Positions 3,975 to 54,316 of a stretch of 64,000 nt of DNA are shown piece after piece; position 1 is the first letter of the stretch, and each line of letters starts with the position of its first letter. Source of the DNA: Chthoniobacterales bacterium (GTDB lineage Bacteria; Verrucomicrobiota; Verrucomicrobiia; Chthoniobacterales; UBA10450). The stretch covers positions 1-64,000 of the forward strand of contig JAICUQ010000001.1 in the NCBI GenBank assembly GCA_025935755.1, in the 5' to 3' direction. The position numbers were made by a program, and so were the translations under genes. A model generated the notes under the pieces. The model ran no database searches, was not told the origin of the DNA, and saw only the letters and a list, made by a program, of their open reading frames with translations.

Positions 3975-4007
3975 ATTACGTGAAACAGCGGTTATGCATA
4001 ACGAATC

Positions 4008-5792
4008 GTGAAACCCGGTGAGCGCATCCTCGGGGTTGAAGGCGGCGGAACTAAAACCGCCTGGGCACTTGTCGAAACTGTCGCGAGTGCGTCCGGCACC
4101 GAGTTTTGCATTGTCGATCAAGGGAGACTGCCACCATCGAATTTTCGTCTCACCAAGCCCGAGCGTCTGCGAGCCATTTTTGCTGAATTGCCGAAGGAGA
4201 TCGATCGGGCGGGAGTTTTCCTGGCCGGTTGCAGAACCGGGGAGGACCGTCGCGTCCTTAGAGAAGCGTGTCTCGAGATCTGGCCGAAAGCCAAAATCGT
4301 CACCGGCAGCGATCGCCAGTCGGGATTAGCCGCGGCGCTTGATCACGCCGACGGGATTGTTGTAAACGCGGGAAGCGGATCATCGGTAACCGGCCGTCGC
4401 GGCGACAAAATCGAACGAGCCGGCGGATGGGGCCACATCCTGGGCGATGCCGGCGGCGGTTATTCTCTTTCCGTACAGGCGCTCCGCCTGGTTCTGCGCG
4501 AATACGATTTGCATCGCATCGAGTTGGATTTCACCGCGAAAATTCTGCACGCCCTTTCGTTGAACAACTTCGATGAGCTGGTTCGCTGGGTGCAAACAGC
4601 GGATAAAATGGAGATCGCAATGCTTGCTCCAGTTGTGTTCGAGACGGCCGCTGCCGGCGGCGCGCCGATGATGGAAATCATCGAAGAAGGCGCAGGCGTG
4701 CTATGCGAATACACCGAAGCCGTTGCTGACCGTCTGCACCTGCTCGCACCGAAAGTCGTCCTTATCGGTGGCCTGTTCTATCGCGATTCGATTTACACCC
4801 ACGCATTCCGGAGACGCCTGAAAAAGAATCTTCCTGACGCCCGCATAACGACCGCCGAGCGAGCGCCTGAACTCGGGGCTGCCTGGCTTGCCGTTGAACC
4901 GCACGATCACGCGGCATTTCATTCCAAGCCGTCTCAAATCGAAATCAACGGTTTGGCTGCCGCGCTCACGGAAAAACGCAATCCTCGCTCGGAAAACCTG
5001 GAAAAAATGAGTGCACAACAATTGGTTGAATTGTTTGTGCGCGAAGAAAAGTTCGTTCATGACGCATTGTCTGCTGCTGCGGCTGATCTTGCGTGCGCAA
5101 TTGAAATCGTCACTGAATCGATGCGCAACGGTGGGCATTTGTTCTATGTAGGCGCCGGCAGCAGCGGACGCATCGGGGTGCTGGATGCGAGCGAGATCCC
5201 GCCCACGTTCGGCGCGCCGCCTCACCTTGTGCAAGGCATCATCGCCGGCGGAGTCACGGCGTTGCACCGCAGTGTTGAAGGCGCGGAAGATGAAGAGAGC
5301 GCCGGCGCACTTGCTTTGGATGAGCGAGGCTTGAACTCCGCTGATGTGGTAATTGGAATTACCGCCAGCGGGCGGACGCCCTTTGTGCTCGGCGCGCTTG
5401 CCCGGGCAAAGTCGTTAGGCGCCAAAACGATTCTGCTTAGTTGTAATCCGGCTGTAGCCGTCACCGGGCATGGCGGCAGGCCGGAGTCAACGCCCCCTAC
5501 CTGCGACCTGTTGATCACACTGGCGGTCGGCCCGGAAATCCTGGCTGGCTCGACGCGGTTGAAAGCCGGAACTGCAACAAAGATCGCGCTAAACGCGATC
5601 AGCACCGGCGCAATGATCGGGCTCGGGAAAGTGCGCGGCAATCTCATGATCGACCTGCGCACGACCAGCACGAAATTGCGCGATCGTGCGGTGCGAATCG
5701 TGGCCGAGGTCACGCAACGTGATTACGAATCTGCTCGCAGCCTGCTCGAAGCGAGCGACTGGAACTTGCGCGCAGCGCTGGAGAAATCTTAA
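4008..5792 (+). CDS. murQ: Bifunctional BadF/BadG-type amino-sugar kinase fused to N-acetylmuramic acid 6-phosphate etherase (MurQ)
   Basis: A 594-residue fusion. Residues 1-about 300 form a BadF/BadG/BcrA-type ATPase/sugar kinase (GVEGGGTKTAWAL phosphate-1 motif, NAGSGSSVTG, GGWGHILGDAGGGY), the family that includes GlcNAc and MurNAc kinases. Residues about 330-594 are a complete MurQ etherase with SIS fold (GAGSSGRIGVLDASEIPPTF, EGAEDEE, GITASGRTPFV, TSTKLRDRA). Inferred role: phosphorylate recovered MurNAc and/or GlcNAc, then cleave the lactyl ether of MurNAc-6-P to GlcNAc-6-P and D-lactate, so both steps of cell-wall sugar recycling would sit on one chain. The start is GTG; family alignment at GVEGGGTKT supports it. 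Divergent from ligA. Substrate preference of the kinase half cannot be read from the sequence. Confidence 0.9.
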   Translation: MKPGERILGVEGGGTKTAWALVETVASASGTEFCIVDQGRLPPSNFRLTKPERLRAIFAELPKEIDRAGVFLAGCRTGEDRRVLREACLEIWPKAKIVTGSDRQSGLAAALDHADGIVVNAGSGSSVTGRRGDKIERAGGWGHILGDAGGGYSLSVQALRLVLREYDLHRIELDFTAKILHALSLNNFDELVRWVQTADKMEIAMLAPVVFETAAAGGAPMMEIIEEGAGVLCEYTEAVADRLHLLAPKVVLIGGLFYRDSIYTHAFRRRLKKNLPDARITTAERAPELGAAWLAVEPHDHAAFHSKPSQIEINGLAAALTEKRNPRSENLEKMSAQQLVELFVREEKFVHDALSAAAADLACAIEIVTESMRNGGHLFYVGAGSSGRIGVLDASEIPPTFGAPPHLVQGIIAGGVTALHRSVEGAEDEESAGALALDERGLNSADVVIGITASGRTPFVLGALARAKSLGAKTILLSCNPAVAVTGHGGRPESTPPTCDLLITLAVGPEILAGSTRLKAGTATKIALNAISTGAMIGLGKVRGNLMIDLRTTSTKLRDRAVRIVAEVTQRDYESARSLLEASDWNLRAALEKS

Positions 5793-11697: not shown

Positions 11698-12180
11698 ATG
11701 CATGGACGCGCAAAGGATCTAATCAGTCAGCTTCATCTGCGGCCCCATCCCGAGGGAGGACATTTCCGGGAGGTTTTCCGATCGTCGCACAAGGTGCAGC
11801 CGCTGGATGAGAGGTCGGCGCGTTGCGCGTTAACAACGATTTACTTTTTGCTTGCCGAGGGCCAGCACGGGCGCTGGCACCGGGTCGGATCCGATGAGGT
11901 CTGGCATTTTTATGAAGGAGATCCACTGGAGCTCTATTGGATCGATGACCAGGACATGGTGCATCGAGAGATGCTCGGGACGGGTACTGCAAACGTTGAG
12001 GCGATGTGCGTCGTCCCGGCCGGGTGCTGGCAAGCATCAAGGCCCCTGGGAGGGTACAGCTTGCTGGGATGTACCGTCGCTCCAGGATTTGACTTTAAGG
12101 ATTTCGAGATGATCTCCGAGGGATCAGCACTGCTCGGACACATCACATCTCTGGATCCAGCCCTCGCCGAACTCGCCTAG
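11698..12180 (+). CDS. DUF985 cupin family protein
   Basis: A 160-residue soluble protein of the DUF985 (cupin_5) family, a double-stranded beta-helix sugar-epimerase-like fold. Signature segments are visible: LHLRPHPEGGHFREVFRSS at the N-terminus, TTIYFLLAEGQHGRWHRVGSDEVWHFYEGDPLEL carrying the cupin His/Glu metal or ligand positions, and the closing YSLLGCTVAPGFDFKDFEM. Members are conserved but of unsettled function, probably small-molecule binding. First in a run of small co-directional genes. Confidence 0.92.
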   Translation: MHGRAKDLISQLHLRPHPEGGHFREVFRSSHKVQPLDERSARCALTTIYFLLAEGQHGRWHRVGSDEVWHFYEGDPLELYWIDDQDMVHREMLGTGTANVEAMCVVPAGCWQASRPLGGYSLLGCTVAPGFDFKDFEMISEGSALLGHITSLDPALAELA

Positions 12181-12348
12181 AGGTAAATGCATGATGCTAT
12201 CGCTCATCGTGTCCCGCACAGGCCGGGAAGAAACCGACAAGAATTTTTGTATACGAAATGCACTCTTGGAAATTGCAGCCATGGGAAGAGTTTGCGAAGA
12301 AAGCTAAAGCTGCCGGGCAATAAACCGGCGGCTCACGATTTTGGCTTC

Positions 12349-12594
12349 ATGAAAACTAAAGTGGTTTTGATGGTCGCTATGGTGACTGGCCTGCTCTCTT
12401 TGGTTGTGGCTGGCTATTGCTTCTGGCTGATGAACGTTCCGCTTTCCTATAGATGGGTGCCCGTCGTCATAACCGGTTTTCTCCTGGGGATTTTCGTGTT
12501 TGTCATCTCGTTGATCACTTCATTGATCGCTCTCATACAATTGCGTCGATTACCGCGTGCGCCTGATCCTCCGCAGATCAGGTCTATCACCTAA
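12349..12594 (+). CDS. Small two-TM membrane protein
   Basis: The ATG at 12349 gives an 81-residue protein with two membrane helices (VVLMVAMVTGLLSLVVAGYCFWLM and WVPVVITGFLLGIFVFVISLITSLIALI) and a basic, Pro-rich tail. The longer frame from 12187 adds a basic stretch with no membrane-protein character and is rejected. No family recognised. It ends 25 bp before the RidA gene and may share a transcript with it. Confidence 0.55.
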   Translation: MKTKVVLMVAMVTGLLSLVVAGYCFWLMNVPLSYRWVPVVITGFLLGIFVFVISLITSLIALIQLRRLPRAPDPPQIRSIT

Positions 12595-12619
12595 CCAGCC
12601 AGCTAAACCGCGACTGACC

Positions 12620-13024
12620 ATGCCAAAAGAATACATTAACCCCGATCACCTTTTCCCCAGCTTGCCACATGGATTTTCCCAGATCGTGGTCGCCACCGGA
12701 AAACGAATCGCGTTCATCTCCGGACAAACGGCCTGGGATGAAGGCAAGAACATTGTTGGCGGAGACAGCGTTCTCGAGCAGGCAAGGCAAGCGTTCCGTA
12801 ACGTTAGAAAGGCAATGGAAGCGGTTGGCGGCACGTTAACGGACATTGTCGCTCTGCGAATATACGTCGTGGATTATCAAGCAGAGTGCGGAACAGCGGT
12901 AGGCACAGCTCTACGCGAATGTTTTTCTACAGAGAATCCGCCGGCAAGTACATGGATCGGTGTTCAGGCCCTGGCAGATCCCCGATTTTTGATCGAGATC
13001 GAAGCGACAGCGGTCCTGGACTGA
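12620..13024 (+). CDS. RidA/YjgF family protein
   Basis: A 134-residue protein of the YjgF/YER057c/UK114 superfamily, trimeric enamine/imine deaminases that hydrolyse reactive 2-aminoacrylate-type intermediates. Matching features are the N-terminal FSQIVVATGKRIAFISGQTAWD, the helix QARQAFRNVRKAMEAVGG, the catalytic-Arg strand IVALRIYVVD and the C-terminal FLIEIEATAVLD with the conserved Glu. Start ATG 12620 is chosen since it begins MPKEYINPD; the frame is open upstream into the previous gene. RidA subgroup membership cannot be settled by eye. Confidence 0.88.
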   Translation: MPKEYINPDHLFPSLPHGFSQIVVATGKRIAFISGQTAWDEGKNIVGGDSVLEQARQAFRNVRKAMEAVGGTLTDIVALRIYVVDYQAECGTAVGTALRECFSTENPPASTWIGVQALADPRFLIEIEATAVLD

Positions 13025-13049
13025 GTCTTTCCGGCCTAACGAATAGACG

Positions 13050-13463
13050 ATTATCGCGTTTGCAATCAAAGCCGAGGTTAACGACCCGCTCGCTAAGACA
13101 TTCGCGTTTAGCGAGCAGAAGACGATGTACGGCGGCAAACAGGTTGCCAAAGGCGATACAATCTTTTTGTTCGCAAGCGAGAACCAAGGCGGTCCGGGTC
13201 TCATCGCCAGCGGTATCGTGACCTCGGTCCAACCAACCGCGAAGATGAAGGGAATCGCCCGGCAAGCGCCGCGGGTGAGCATCACTGTCAAATGCACCGC
13301 GCTCGCGAAGCGGCAGCTAGGGCGAAGCGAGCTGAAAGGTTTTTCCAACTGGAACGACGGCCGGCCGGAGACGGAGCTCAATTTCAAATTATACCGTCAA
13401 GCCACGAACAAAATCATTGGCATCTCCGATGAAGCCACAGCGTTCCTGCATAAGTTATTTTGA
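13050..13463 (+). CDS. Conserved hypothetical protein with apparent non-standard start
   Basis: From the only ATG (13125) this is 112 residues, yet the preceding 25 in-frame codons read as good protein (IIAFAIKAEVNDPLAKTFAF, then SEQKT) and contain no ATG, GTG or TTG after the stop at 13044. The probable start is therefore ATT 13050 or ATC 13053, or the start codon has been lost. The beta-rich body (GDTIFLFASENQGGPGLIASG, VSITVKCTALAKRQLG) resembles small barrel proteins of the ASCH/EVE/PUA-like sort, without certainty. It begins 25 bp after the RidA stop. Function unknown. Confidence 0.6.
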   Translation: MIAFAIKAEVNDPLAKTFAFSEQKTMYGGKQVAKGDTIFLFASENQGGPGLIASGIVTSVQPTAKMKGIARQAPRVSITVKCTALAKRQLGRSELKGFSNWNDGRPETELNFKLYRQATNKIIGISDEATAFLHKLF

Positions 13464-13615
13464 TCTCTTCAATGAAGAGCAATTTGGCCTGACAATTTTT
13501 GATTGATTAAATTTTTTGCGTTCTGGTTTTATGACCGCAAAAAAGCTCACTCCCGAGCGCCGTCTCGACAATGGAGTACGGTAATCACGGGAGCGAGTTT
13601 CGGAGGAGATAGCCG

Positions 13616-14221
13616 ATGATCCAGCCATTGATTGTTTTCGCACCGGGTGCGGGTGCGCCTTCCTCGCATCCGTGGATGCAAAATTGGAAACGGCGTCTAT
13701 CCGAAATCGGCGAGGTAGAAACTTTCGACTACGATTACATGCGGGCGGGGCGAAAACGGCCTGATTCGTTGCCGCAACTGATCGCCGCACATCGGGCGGC
13801 CCTCGCCGCGGCGCGAGAGAAACATCAACCGGAGTCAACATTGCTGATCGGCAAGAGCATGGGCGGGCGAATCGGTTGCCACCTGTCGCTCGAAGAAAAA
13901 GTCGATGGACTGGTTTGTCTTGGCTATCCGCTTCGCGCCATGGGCGATCGTACAAAACTTCGCGACGAGATTTTGCGCGCGCTCAGTACGCCTATCCTGT
14001 TTGTTCAAGCCACCCGCGACGCGCTATGTCCGCTGGACCTTCTCCAGCGGGTCCGAGCCGGGATGAAAGGGCCAAACATTCTGCACGTTGTGGAAGGCGG
14101 CGACCACTCCCTGCGTGTGGCGAAGCGCCAGCTTCACGCGGCAGGTGAAACGCAGGAAGATGTAGATGAAAGAATATTCCACGCGATCACTGCGTTCGTT
14201 CGCAATCTGAAATCTACGTAA
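13616..14221 (+). CDS. Alpha/beta hydrolase, TEX30/KANL3-like
   Basis: A 201-residue alpha/beta hydrolase. The N-terminal strand-loop FAPGAGAPSSHPWM, the nucleophile elbow GKSMGGR (Ser near residue 81), an acid in QATRDALCP and the His in GGDHSL form a plausible Ser-Asp-His triad. The spacing and GAGA loop match the short dienelactone-hydrolase-like group that includes TEX30/KANL3 homologues and many bacterial proteins of unknown substrate. ATG at 13616 is preceded by GGAGGAGA (strong Shine-Dalgarno around 13600). Stand-alone gene. Confidence 0.88.
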   Translation: MIQPLIVFAPGAGAPSSHPWMQNWKRRLSEIGEVETFDYDYMRAGRKRPDSLPQLIAAHRAALAAAREKHQPESTLLIGKSMGGRIGCHLSLEEKVDGLVCLGYPLRAMGDRTKLRDEILRALSTPILFVQATRDALCPLDLLQRVRAGMKGPNILHVVEGGDHSLRVAKRQLHAAGETQEDVDERIFHAITAFVRNLKST

Positions 14222-51544: not shown

Positions 51545-52342
51545 CTATTCAGCGCTCTTCTGAGCCGTGTCTGCCGATCCGGATTCCCGCTGACTGATCA
51601 CGTCGCGATATCGCACGATGCCGTCGGTAATCGCTGCCGCTAACTGGTCGCGATAATCTTCACTCGCAAGTTTCGATAGCTCGTCCTTGTTCGTGATAAA
51701 GCCGCCCTCAATCAAGACCGCAGGAGATGTCACGTTTGCGATCACAAAAAATTGTTTGGCTTGCGTCCCGCGATCGATGGATCGGGTTCGCGCCACCAAT
51801 GCTTCCTGAATGAAACTGGCGAGACTTTGGCTTTCCGGCCTCGGTGAATTAGATGGCGGCCGCGAAAAAAATGGCAGCCACGAAGCGAGAGTAGAACTGT
51901 AGCCGACCTGATGCGCCGCATAATACGTTTCAACACCACTGGCGACTGGTTTGTTGTCTTCATTAAAATGAATACTGATAAAAATGCTGTCGTTCGCCCG
52001 ATTCCCGAACGCAGCCCGGTCGGCCAGCGAGACATAGCTGTCCCCGAGCCGGGTCATCAATGTGGCAATCCCTCGAGCATCCAGGAGCCGATCGACGCGG
52101 CGCGCTACGTCCAGCGTCAGATCTTTTTCTACGACGCCGCCACACATCGCTCCGGAATCCTGACCACCGTGTCCAGGGTCAAGAACCACGACTGCGAATG
52201 GCTTGCGTCCCTGTGGCTGAGTAGCCCTTGATCCTTTATAAACCGCCGGTCGCTTCTCCTGGTGCAAGGAAATCCAGACAAGCGAGACAATCATCAGCAA
52301 CAAGCCGGCGACCGCCACCACATTCCTCAAGGCTTGTTTCAT
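51545..52342 (-). CDS. N-acetylmuramoyl-L-alanine amidase (Amidase_3)
   Basis: A 265-residue Amidase_3 zinc hydrolase: VVVLDPGHGGQDSGAMCGG holds the first Zn His and the following Glu (VVEKDLTLDVARRVDRLL), with later SIHFNEDNK (His) and the catalytic Glu in AVLIEGGFITNKDE. N-terminal transmembrane/signal anchor (VVAVAGLLLMIVSLVWISLH). It cleaves the MurNAc-L-Ala bond in the wall. Placed 38 bp after prcA and 20 bp before the peptidoglycan-binding gene, so likely co-transcribed, although the functional tie to the proteasome is not clear. Confidence 0.93.
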   Translation of the reverse strand: MKQALRNVVAVAGLLLMIVSLVWISLHQEKRPAVYKGSRATQPQGRKPFAVVVLDPGHGGQDSGAMCGGVVEKDLTLDVARRVDRLLDARGIATLMTRLGDSYVSLADRAAFGNRANDSIFISIHFNEDNKPVASGVETYYAAHQVGYSSTLASWLPFFSRPPSNSPRPESQSLASFIQEALVARTRSIDRGTQAKQFFVIANVTSPAVLIEGGFITNKDELSKLASEDYRDQLAAAITDGIVRYRDVISQRESGSADTAQKSAE

Positions 52343-52380: not shown

Positions 52381-53160
52381 TCACTGAGAAATGATGGAGC
52401 GCAATTCCTTATCTGCCAGCGGGCGATATCGAATCGGTGTGCTGCCATCGCGCTGCAGCACTGCGGCTTCTACCGCAGCAATCGCGAGTTGTTCCTGGCG
52501 ATGTTGCGCGATGGCATCGCGCGCCGGCAACTCTTTCGTCTCGCCCGCTTGCAACAACATGTGACCAACACTCCATGCGTCGAGTGCCGAGTTCACTGCC
52601 GTTTCCAAGCTGGCATCCGGTTTGTGCTCGGCTTTGAGAAATGCTTCCATGAATTCGACCGATTGGCGCGTCCCGCTGAGCACGGCAAAATCTTGTCGCG
52701 CTCGCGAATACGTCGCACCGTTGCTTGCGATCTCGCCGTCGTATTCAACTCGCAAAAACAAATCGTCCTCGGGACGCGCGCCTACCTCCGCGAAAAGCAT
52801 GCGCGCCAGATACGGAGCACCGTAGACCTGCTCGAAAGCGCTCTTCATGACCGGGCTGAGCGAATAATGCGCGAGCCGCCGCAGCGAAACATCCGCCGCC
52901 GAGCGCGTGAAACCCTCGGTGCTCGCCAGTTCAATGGCGGCCATTCGTAAACGCTCGATATCGCCGGGATGGCCGATCGCTCCCATCGCAATACGATCGT
53001 AAATCTCGAAAAGTTTCTGGCGCGTCTGTCCAAGCGTGACAAACAGGATGCCTTCGCCGTAACCCAGCGCCGCGATGGGACTACCAGGGGCGAGCTGTCC
53101 TTCGATGTACTCGCGCCGGTTGGCGATCGCTTCAACCCAACGATACGGCTCCTCAATCAT
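52381..53160 (-). CDS. prcA: Proteasome alpha subunit (PrcA-like)
   Basis: A 259-residue alpha-type proteasome subunit, which forms the outer rings of the 20S barrel and gates entry. Segments REYIEGQLAPGSPIAALGYG, EGILFVTLGQTRQKLFEIYD and RIAMGAIGHPGDIERLRMAA match actinobacterial PrcA, including the IYDRI and IGxxxDxExLR elements. Its last residues (RSIISQ) do not show the canonical GYL-type tail. The ATG overlaps the prcB stop (ATGA), a coupled pair, with UBact upstream. No unfoldase gene is present here. Confidence 0.92.
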   Translation of the reverse strand: MIEEPYRWVEAIANRREYIEGQLAPGSPIAALGYGEGILFVTLGQTRQKLFEIYDRIAMGAIGHPGDIERLRMAAIELASTEGFTRSAADVSLRRLAHYSLSPVMKSAFEQVYGAPYLARMLFAEVGARPEDDLFLRVEYDGEIASNGATYSRARQDFAVLSGTRQSVEFMEAFLKAEHKPDASLETAVNSALDAWSVGHMLLQAGETKELPARDAIAQHRQEQLAIAAVEAAVLQRDGSTPIRYRPLADKELRSIISQ

Positions 53161-53981
53161 GCCACCATTTCCTTGAACACGGCCGCGATCTTATTTTGCG
53201 GCAAAGTGGTGATGCCTTTGCGCGACACAATCTTGATTATGGGATAAATTTTTCCGCTCCGATCCACGCCTGCTGTCGCTGTATCTGATTCAGCAGCAGT
53301 ATCTAGGGCGCGCAGCGCGAGGGACACTGCTTCGTCTTCACTCAGGTTGTGCAGCGGCTTCCCGCCCCATGTGTTTTCATAATAAAGAATGCCGCGGACC
53401 GCAGGGGAACCGGATCCAGTTGCCGCGTAATCGGTGGCTTCAAATTGCGCGCCCATCGCGTCGTAAAAGTAGAGACGCGCTTCGGGCTTCGAATTTCCGT
53501 CATAAGTCGCAAAGATCGGGACTACGACACCGATGCCTTGCATGACGAACCCGAAATTGTCGCGCAACAACTTCGAGAGCGCCCGCACTTTGCCGTCGAC
53601 GCTCATTTCCTGCAGCTGAGTTCGCCGAAAAAATTGCAGTGAATGCTCAAGCACGCGTGCCATCTCCCACGCGGTGGCAGGCACACCGGCGATGGCCATT
53701 ATCGAATTGCTATCAATCTCCAGAACTTTGTCCGCGCGATCATAGACAACGGTGTTACCCGCAGTCGCACGGCGATCTCCTGCAACCAGAACGCCGCCGG
53801 AAAATTTGAAGGCAAGAATCGTCGTCGCCTGGGTCGGTTGCCACATCTGTTGTTGCGCCGGGTTTTGCACCATCGGACCCGGGGCAGCCGGGCCAAGCAG
53901 CCCTTTGCGCCGCAGCAGCGAAGGAAAGTCATCCGCTGCACCAGAGAAATTCTGGTCAAATCCCAACTCCGAATGGTCCAT
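53157..53981 (-). CDS. prcB: Proteasome beta subunit (PrcB-like), N-terminal threonine protease
   Basis: A 274-residue precursor of the catalytic beta subunit. The active Thr is expected at residue 53 in QATTILAFKF, leaving a 52-residue propeptide for autocatalytic removal. In mature numbering Thr1, Asp17 (AGDRRAT) and Lys33 (ADKVLEI) stand at exactly the canonical distances. The residue before Thr1 is Ala instead of the usual Gly. The start is the ATG at 53981, which shares a base with the UBact stop (TAATG); a longer frame to 54119 overlaps the UBact gene entirely and is rejected. Downstream prcA overlaps by ATGA. Confidence 0.95.
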   Translation of the reverse strand: MDHSELGFDQNFSGAADDFPSLLRRKGLLGPAAPGPMVQNPAQQQMWQPTQATTILAFKFSGGVLVAGDRRATAGNTVVYDRADKVLEIDSNSIMAIAGVPATAWEMARVLEHSLQFFRRTQLQEMSVDGKVRALSKLLRDNFGFVMQGIGVVVPIFATYDGNSKPEARLYFYDAMGAQFEATDYAATGSGSPAVRGILYYENTWGGKPLHNLSEDEAVSLALRALDTAAESDTATAGVDRSGKIYPIIKIVSRKGITTLPQNKIAAVFKEMVA

Positions 53982-54157
53982 TACTGACCCGTGCGCTGGC
54001 GATAGCGCTTGGATTGGTTGGGATCCACCTTGCGCATTTTCTTTAACAAATCCTTCGTGTCCGGTCGCGAAACATCGGGCGAACGCGGGCCACCGCTGTC
54101 GCCTTGTTTTGGTCCCCACGGAGCCGGTTCTACCGGCTTTTGAATGCGCTCAGGCAT
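53981..54157 (-). CDS. UBact-type ubiquitin-like (Pup-like) protein
   Basis: A 58-residue, charged, probably disordered protein: it starts MPERIQKPVE, includes APWGPKQGDSGGP and RPDTKDLLKKMRKVDP and ends RYRQRTGQ. This pattern is that of UBact, the Pup analogue described in some Gram-negative bacteria carrying proteasomes. Like Pup it is expected to be attached through its C-terminal side chain to substrate lysines; the terminal Gln58 would first need deamidation by a Dop-like enzyme. The stop TAA shares a base with the prcB ATG. The reading upstream of 54157 is not part of the gene. Too short to be found by length filters. Confidence 0.93.
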   Translation of the reverse strand: MPERIQKPVEPAPWGPKQGDSGGPRSPDVSRPDTKDLLKKMRKVDPNQSKRYRQRTGQ

Positions 54158-54316
54158 GAAAAAACGTACGAGCAAAAGTTCGAAACGCAAGGGGCGCAGC
54201 GTCAATAGGCTTCTTAAATGGCTACAGTGCATTCGTTAACAGTTTGAAAAAACAATCGCTCGAACTGTCGAACCCGCTTGTCAGACAAATGCGCCGATGG
54301 CAACATTTCCGCAGCG
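54158..54316. promoter_or_regulatory. Divergent control region for UBact-prcBA and the LysM gene
   Basis: 159 bp between two genes transcribed apart. On the minus strand TTGACG (54205-54200) could be a -35 for the proteasome operon, but the -10 at the right distance (CGAACT) is poor. The region is AT-richer next to the UBact start (a run of T on the coding strand) and no Shine-Dalgarno is visible before its ATG. Confidence 0.3.

Follow-up and report, generated by a model that had tools for sequence, protein, structure and literature searches.

The ubiquitin-like modifier UBact reportedly received its name in 2017. PMC12751074 cites Lehmann et al. (2017, BBRC 483:946) for the UBact system. A Methylacidiphilum Pup with a G[EQ] C-terminus had been reported in 2008 (PMC2588565), and verrucomicrobial proteasome subunits were also reported earlier (PMC5666114). 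For Pup, deamidation by Dop and ligation by PafA are established, as is a second role of Dop in removing the tag (PMC7947786). Furthermore, in mycobacteria the proteasome is opened by the C-terminal GQYL of Mpa and Bpa/PafE, which retains the penultimate tyrosine of the HbYX motif (PMC8223512, PMC12288473). For UBact, we found neither a biochemical study nor a conjugation experiment in the open-access literature.

The locus described here very probably supplies the modifier and the core particle of a UBact-proteasome system that is complete in its genome, that of a Ca. Udaeobacter-like member of the Chthoniobacterales, and that would work as proposed from the enzymes of the Pup system. The system is real and complete, of a kind that is already known, biochemically little studied and common in soil verrucomicrobia. 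Our additions to this picture are modest: the dispersal of the gene cluster and a Val/Ile tail on the ATPase.

Results

The window, by which we mean the whole 64,000-nucleotide stretch of DNA that was analysed, is part of a 104-kb contig in an assembly of 3.67 Mb and 270 contigs. An earlier note, made from the letters of the window, had described three tightly coupled minus-strand genes at 52381-54157 and had named them UBact-prcB-prcA; the genes are indeed there, and profile matches for all three proteins, well beyond what chance would give, bear out the names. The first, ubact (53981-54157), encodes a modifier of 58 aa, prcB (53157-53981) the proteasome beta subunit of 274 aa and prcA (52381-53160) the alpha subunit of 259 aa. 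At the ubact/prcB junction, TAATG, the last A of the TAA stop is the first base of the prcB ATG; prcB and prcA overlap by ATGA, and the three genes are translationally coupled. A 120-bp intergenic region (54158-54277) separates ubact from a divergent plus-strand LysM-domain gene and, going by this layout, presumably holds the promoter of the three genes. An N-acetylmuramoyl-L-alanine amidase gene (51545-52342, minus strand; Amidase_3, 170.8 bits) lies 38 bp downstream of prcA. This DPGHGG-type reading frame follows prcA in most Chthoniobacterales loci and in none of the Nitrospirota loci, and we do not assign it to the proteasome system.

PrcB carries a propeptide of 52 residues (coding segment 53826-53981, minus strand), which ends in QPTQA and is followed by TTILAFKF. 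In the phmmer alignment the mature beta chains of Rhodococcus and M. tuberculosis start opposite its residue 53, which is the catalytic Thr; Asp17 and Lys33, numbered from this Thr1, are present as first read from the sequence. PrcB matches TIGR03690 with 173 bits (E 6.5e-51, under the curated cut-off of that model) and PF00227 with 103 bits. HslV models match it weakly (E 4.6e-8), and we ruled out that it is HslV because a separate alpha subunit is encoded and the 20S beta match is far better. Ala instead of Gly before Thr1 had been flagged as a point of interest. The Ala is present, and the Rhodococcus beta chain does have Gly at this position, but Ala is the norm of the lineage: the residue is Ala in 72, Ser in 15 and Gly in 2 of 89 relatives (Ala or Ser in 87/89), which rules out an unusual maturation site.

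PrcA is divergent in sequence, with about 86 bits to TIGR03691 (85.9; E 2.8e-24, under cut-off) and a phmmer match to M. tuberculosis PrcA at E 3.7e-14. Its AlphaFold model, built with 22 relatives as input, has a pLDDT of 88; it matches 20S chains from M. tuberculosis and from Rhodococcus at E about 1e-16 (best 2e-17), and by this model PrcA has the alpha-subunit fold. K49, which aligns with the activator-pocket lysine region of M. tuberculosis PrcA, is invariant in the 22 relatives.

The 58-aa protein had been called Pup/UBact-like, a reading that a lack of similarity to UBact in profile searches was to count against; the similarity was found: 79.9 bits to PF20513 (E 1.2e-22, cut-off 27.8) and 83.5 bits to NF033388 (ubiq_like_UBact; cut-off 35). 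Each of the 17 relatives in the alignment matches PF20513, and G-P, P, M, VDP, Q, RY and QRTG are common to all; in the alignment across two phyla the C-terminal part is almost invariant and the N-terminus variable. Its reading frame lies directly 5' of prcB in essentially every locus compared. Pup was absent from the matches when the UBact profile was searched against PDB chains that included Pup, and in a Pfam scan, and hhalign gave the pair a probability of 0.8% (E 0.066). UBact is thus not recognisable as Pup by HMMER or hhalign, and we do not claim direct homology from sequence; the notion that it acts as Pup does comes from the enzymes in common and from the G[EQ] end, and not from the modifier's sequence.

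As first described, the window's UBact ends in RTGQ, with Gly and then Gln closing the sequence RYRQRTGQ. This terminal Gln, presented as a feature of interest, is not unusual: in 87 loci UBact ends with Gln in 54 and with Glu in 33 (RTGQ or RTGE), which rules it out as a special feature. The two residues have codons one base apart (CAA/CAG and GAA/GAG), and a quick PrcB tree implies 12 or more switches between them, five of these being forced by well-supported branches. Dop is found in Gln-ending and Glu-ending UBact genomes alike, and its retention in the latter would fit a second role in tag removal, by analogy with Pup.

The absence of an unfoldase and a ligase holds for the window but not for the genome: the homologues of Dop/PafA and ARC/Mpa that the earlier note proposed to look for are all in the same assembly, and they were also found in the phylum's other UBact genomes. 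Contig C188 carries a Mpa/ARC-like ATPase of 559 aa (12108-13787, minus strand) with Prot_ATP_ID_OB_N (OB_N), OB_C and AAA domains and 461 bits to TIGR03689 (cut-off 504.75). Directly after it lies the gene for Dop (507 aa; 548 bits to PF03136; best NCBIfam match TIGR03688 Dop, 484 bits). PafA, of about 480 aa, is encoded on contig C203 (417 bits to PF03136; best NCBIfam match TIGR03686 PafA, 327 bits). Against solved structures, Dop scores 408 bits to Dop and 267 to PafA. The corresponding margin for PafA is slight (246 to PafA, 238 to Dop), and a tree was therefore built, in which a branch (94/86) separates the Dop proteins, those of the UBact lineage as well as the actinobacterial ones, from both PafA sets. 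The PafA side is less certain, since it includes a single, long-branched actinobacterial PafA row. The spacing from GLETEYG to NGAR is 80 in Dop and 47-50 in PafA, the roughly 30 extra residues falling at the position of the Dop loop. Both proteins keep the RxYxD motif, whose Asp is Asn in the 4bjr PafA entry. PrcB, PrcA, the ATPase, Dop and PafA all score under NCBIfam equivalog cut-offs that were tuned on actinobacteria, so kinetics or partners may differ.

The ATPase of the window's genome (G000, contig C188; locus L007) ends in TSVI. A [VI][VI] end, preceded by a diverged linker and with no aromatic among the last four residues, was found in 27 of 27 distinct UBact genomes from two phyla (Verrucomicrobiota and Nitrospirota), and in none of these 27 did we see a GQYL tail, a penultimate Tyr or HbYX. 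Actinobacterial ARCs taken as controls (Nonomuraea, Tsukamurella) end in TGQYL. A third record, from a plasmid of Streptomyces sp. NBC_01320 (L215), was dropped as a control since it has no normal ATPase C-terminus; its unannotated, partial ARC-like match (4001-4957) lies between transposase genes, is degenerate in its C-terminal reading frame and looks like a broken copy. The pocket lysine of the alpha subunit is the residue that meets the C-terminal carboxylate of the activator. With K49 invariant and the ATPase ending in [VI][VI], the pocket lysine is kept and the tail differs. We found no mention of this tail in open-access papers.

Nitrospirota and one verrucomicrobial family (f9), which is represented by six compact genomes of about 2.3 Mb each and is probably Methylacidiphilum-like, have an intact cluster in the order ATPase-Dop-UBact-prcB-prcA-PafA. 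Genomes of the window's family have the set spread over three contigs, which holds even for assemblies with as few contigs as 10 (G166) and 20 (G013), and in one genome (G257) PafA lies about 4 kb past prcA on the opposite strand. What remains joined is UBact-prcB-prcA, often followed by the amidase gene. The cluster has broken up in the window's order, and the lack of ligase and unfoldase in the window reflects this dispersal. Other arrangements were seen as well. In Nitrospira sp. YR-XLJ-1 (L155, 8631-13187) UBact-prcB-prcA is tandemly duplicated within one cluster, with two copies each of UBact, PrcB and PrcA. In two Verrucomicrobiaceae/Prosthecobacter loci (L143, 9687-10452; L147, 9684-10449) a permease-like membrane-protein gene follows UBact-prcB where prcA would be expected.

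Across the phylum 387 genomes were sampled. UBact scores above its cut-off in 10 of them, and these are also the ones with exactly two full-length Pup_ligase genes; an ATPase and a proteasome subunit match were present in all of them (10/10). PF20513 matches in two further genomes (G099, G229) fall short of the cut-off, and neither genome has Pup_ligase or a proteasome; we took these matches to be chance. The only Pup_ligase match outside the 10 is a fragment of 27 residues that scores 36.6 bits; the open frame with this fragment (L032, G341:C68:14549-14629) is 39 aa long and is a relic or a contamination in a verrucomicrobial genome without UBact. In the window's family, UBact was found in 73 of 83 genomes and Pup_ligase in 82 of 83; for genomes of good quality the counts are 29/30 and 30/30. 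The set is thus nearly universal in the family and not a sporadic trait. Named genomes were scanned as well and gave 537 encoding loci, the best 80 of which include many from Chthoniobacterales (Ca. Udaeobacter, Spartobacteria), Chthoniobacter flavus Ellin428 and Nitrospirota. The verrucomicrobial origin suspected for the window is thereby narrowed to a Ca. Udaeobacter-like lineage of the Chthoniobacterales.

Discussion

UBact, PrcB, PrcA, the ATPase, Dop and PafA are all encoded with recognisable catalytic and structural landmarks, and their joint occurrence shows that the set is inherited together. By analogy with Pup, we infer that proteins are tagged with UBact and degraded by the proteasome in this lineage. 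Dop would hydrolyse the amide of the terminal Gln of UBact to give Glu, and PafA would phosphorylate the side-chain carboxylate of this Glu and join UBact to lysines of target proteins; Dop may also detach the tag. The hexameric ATPase would engage UBact on the tagged protein, unfold the latter and feed it into a 20S particle, presumably PrcA7-PrcB7-PrcB7-PrcA7, in which self-processing of PrcB would expose Thr1 for degradation. The ATPase might dock on the alpha ring by its C-terminal Val/Ile-Val/Ile tail, not by an aromatic tail of the GQYL/HbYX type. As it lacks the GQYL that actinobacterial activators need, this docking mode is putative. We tentatively suggest, giving it somewhat less than an even chance, that UBact proteasomes have a docking chemistry unlike that of the characterised Pup, PAN and Rpt types, the Val/Ile-Val/Ile tail opening the alpha ring through the pocket lysine and with no tyrosine. 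The tail is a testable lead.

It is improbable, in our estimation, that UBact is mainly a reversible, non-degradative mark, with a proteasome that degrades largely by another route and three genes co-transcribed by history only. Such a mark would suit the separation of ligase, Dop and ATPase from UBact-prcB-prcA in the window's order and an ATPase without the kind of docking tail that Pup systems have. It would also suit the retention of Dop where UBact already ends in Glu, which suggests that tag removal is probably under selection. However, after the break-up of the cluster UBact stays beside prcB, and not beside PafA, across the lineage; ATPase and Dop have remained adjacent on their other contig, and all components are co-inherited. 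These observations argue against a mainly non-degradative mark. The break-up might also be taken as decay, leaving dispersed and non-functional remnants of a cluster whose genes lie on three separate contigs in the window's family, low-contig assemblies included. We already disfavoured this reading and consider it highly implausible: every open frame is intact, the catalytic residues are retained and Pup_ligase persists in 82/83 genomes of the family. Finally, there is a negligible chance that the small 58-aa frame upstream of prcB is spurious or unrelated, and the idea can be counted as refuted, for although the frame is short, with a low-complexity N-terminus and no obvious Shine-Dalgarno sequence, it has a strong UBact profile match, a conserved C-terminal part and a place 5' of prcB in essentially all loci.

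The distribution shows that a mostly uncultured soil family carries a full tagging-and-degradation set almost universally. Two features of the system amount to natural experiments: the repeated switching between Gln and Glu at the end of UBact while Dop is retained, and an ATPase tail without the tyrosine that is thought to open proteasome gates. Chthoniobacter flavus and the Methylacidiphilum lineage (PMC2588565) offer cultured entry points for the study of UBact conjugation.

Comparison with known systems

With HslV/HslU the link is a weak match of PrcB to HslV models; PrcB is much closer to bacterial 20S beta subunits, and a separate alpha subunit is present here. Archaeal and eukaryotic 20S proteasomes with PAN/Rpt ATPases share the core-particle fold and the Thr1 mechanism; conjugation there is of the E1-E2-E3 kind, whereas here it would be of the Pup-ligase type, and the ATPase has no HbYX tail. 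The actinobacterial Pup system has the same enzyme set (Mpa/ARC, Dop, PrcB, PrcA, PafA), the same Gln/Glu logic at the C-terminus, a Dop with and a PafA without the extra loop, an OB+AAA ATPase and a pocket lysine in the alpha subunit. It differs in a modifier that is not detectably related to UBact, in the end of its ATPase (GQYL there, [VI][VI] here) and in the residue before Thr1 of PrcB (Gly there, Ala/Ser here). The described UBact system agrees with ours in modifier family, partner genes and Gram-negative host, the difference being that in the window's order only UBact-prcB-prcA are still together.
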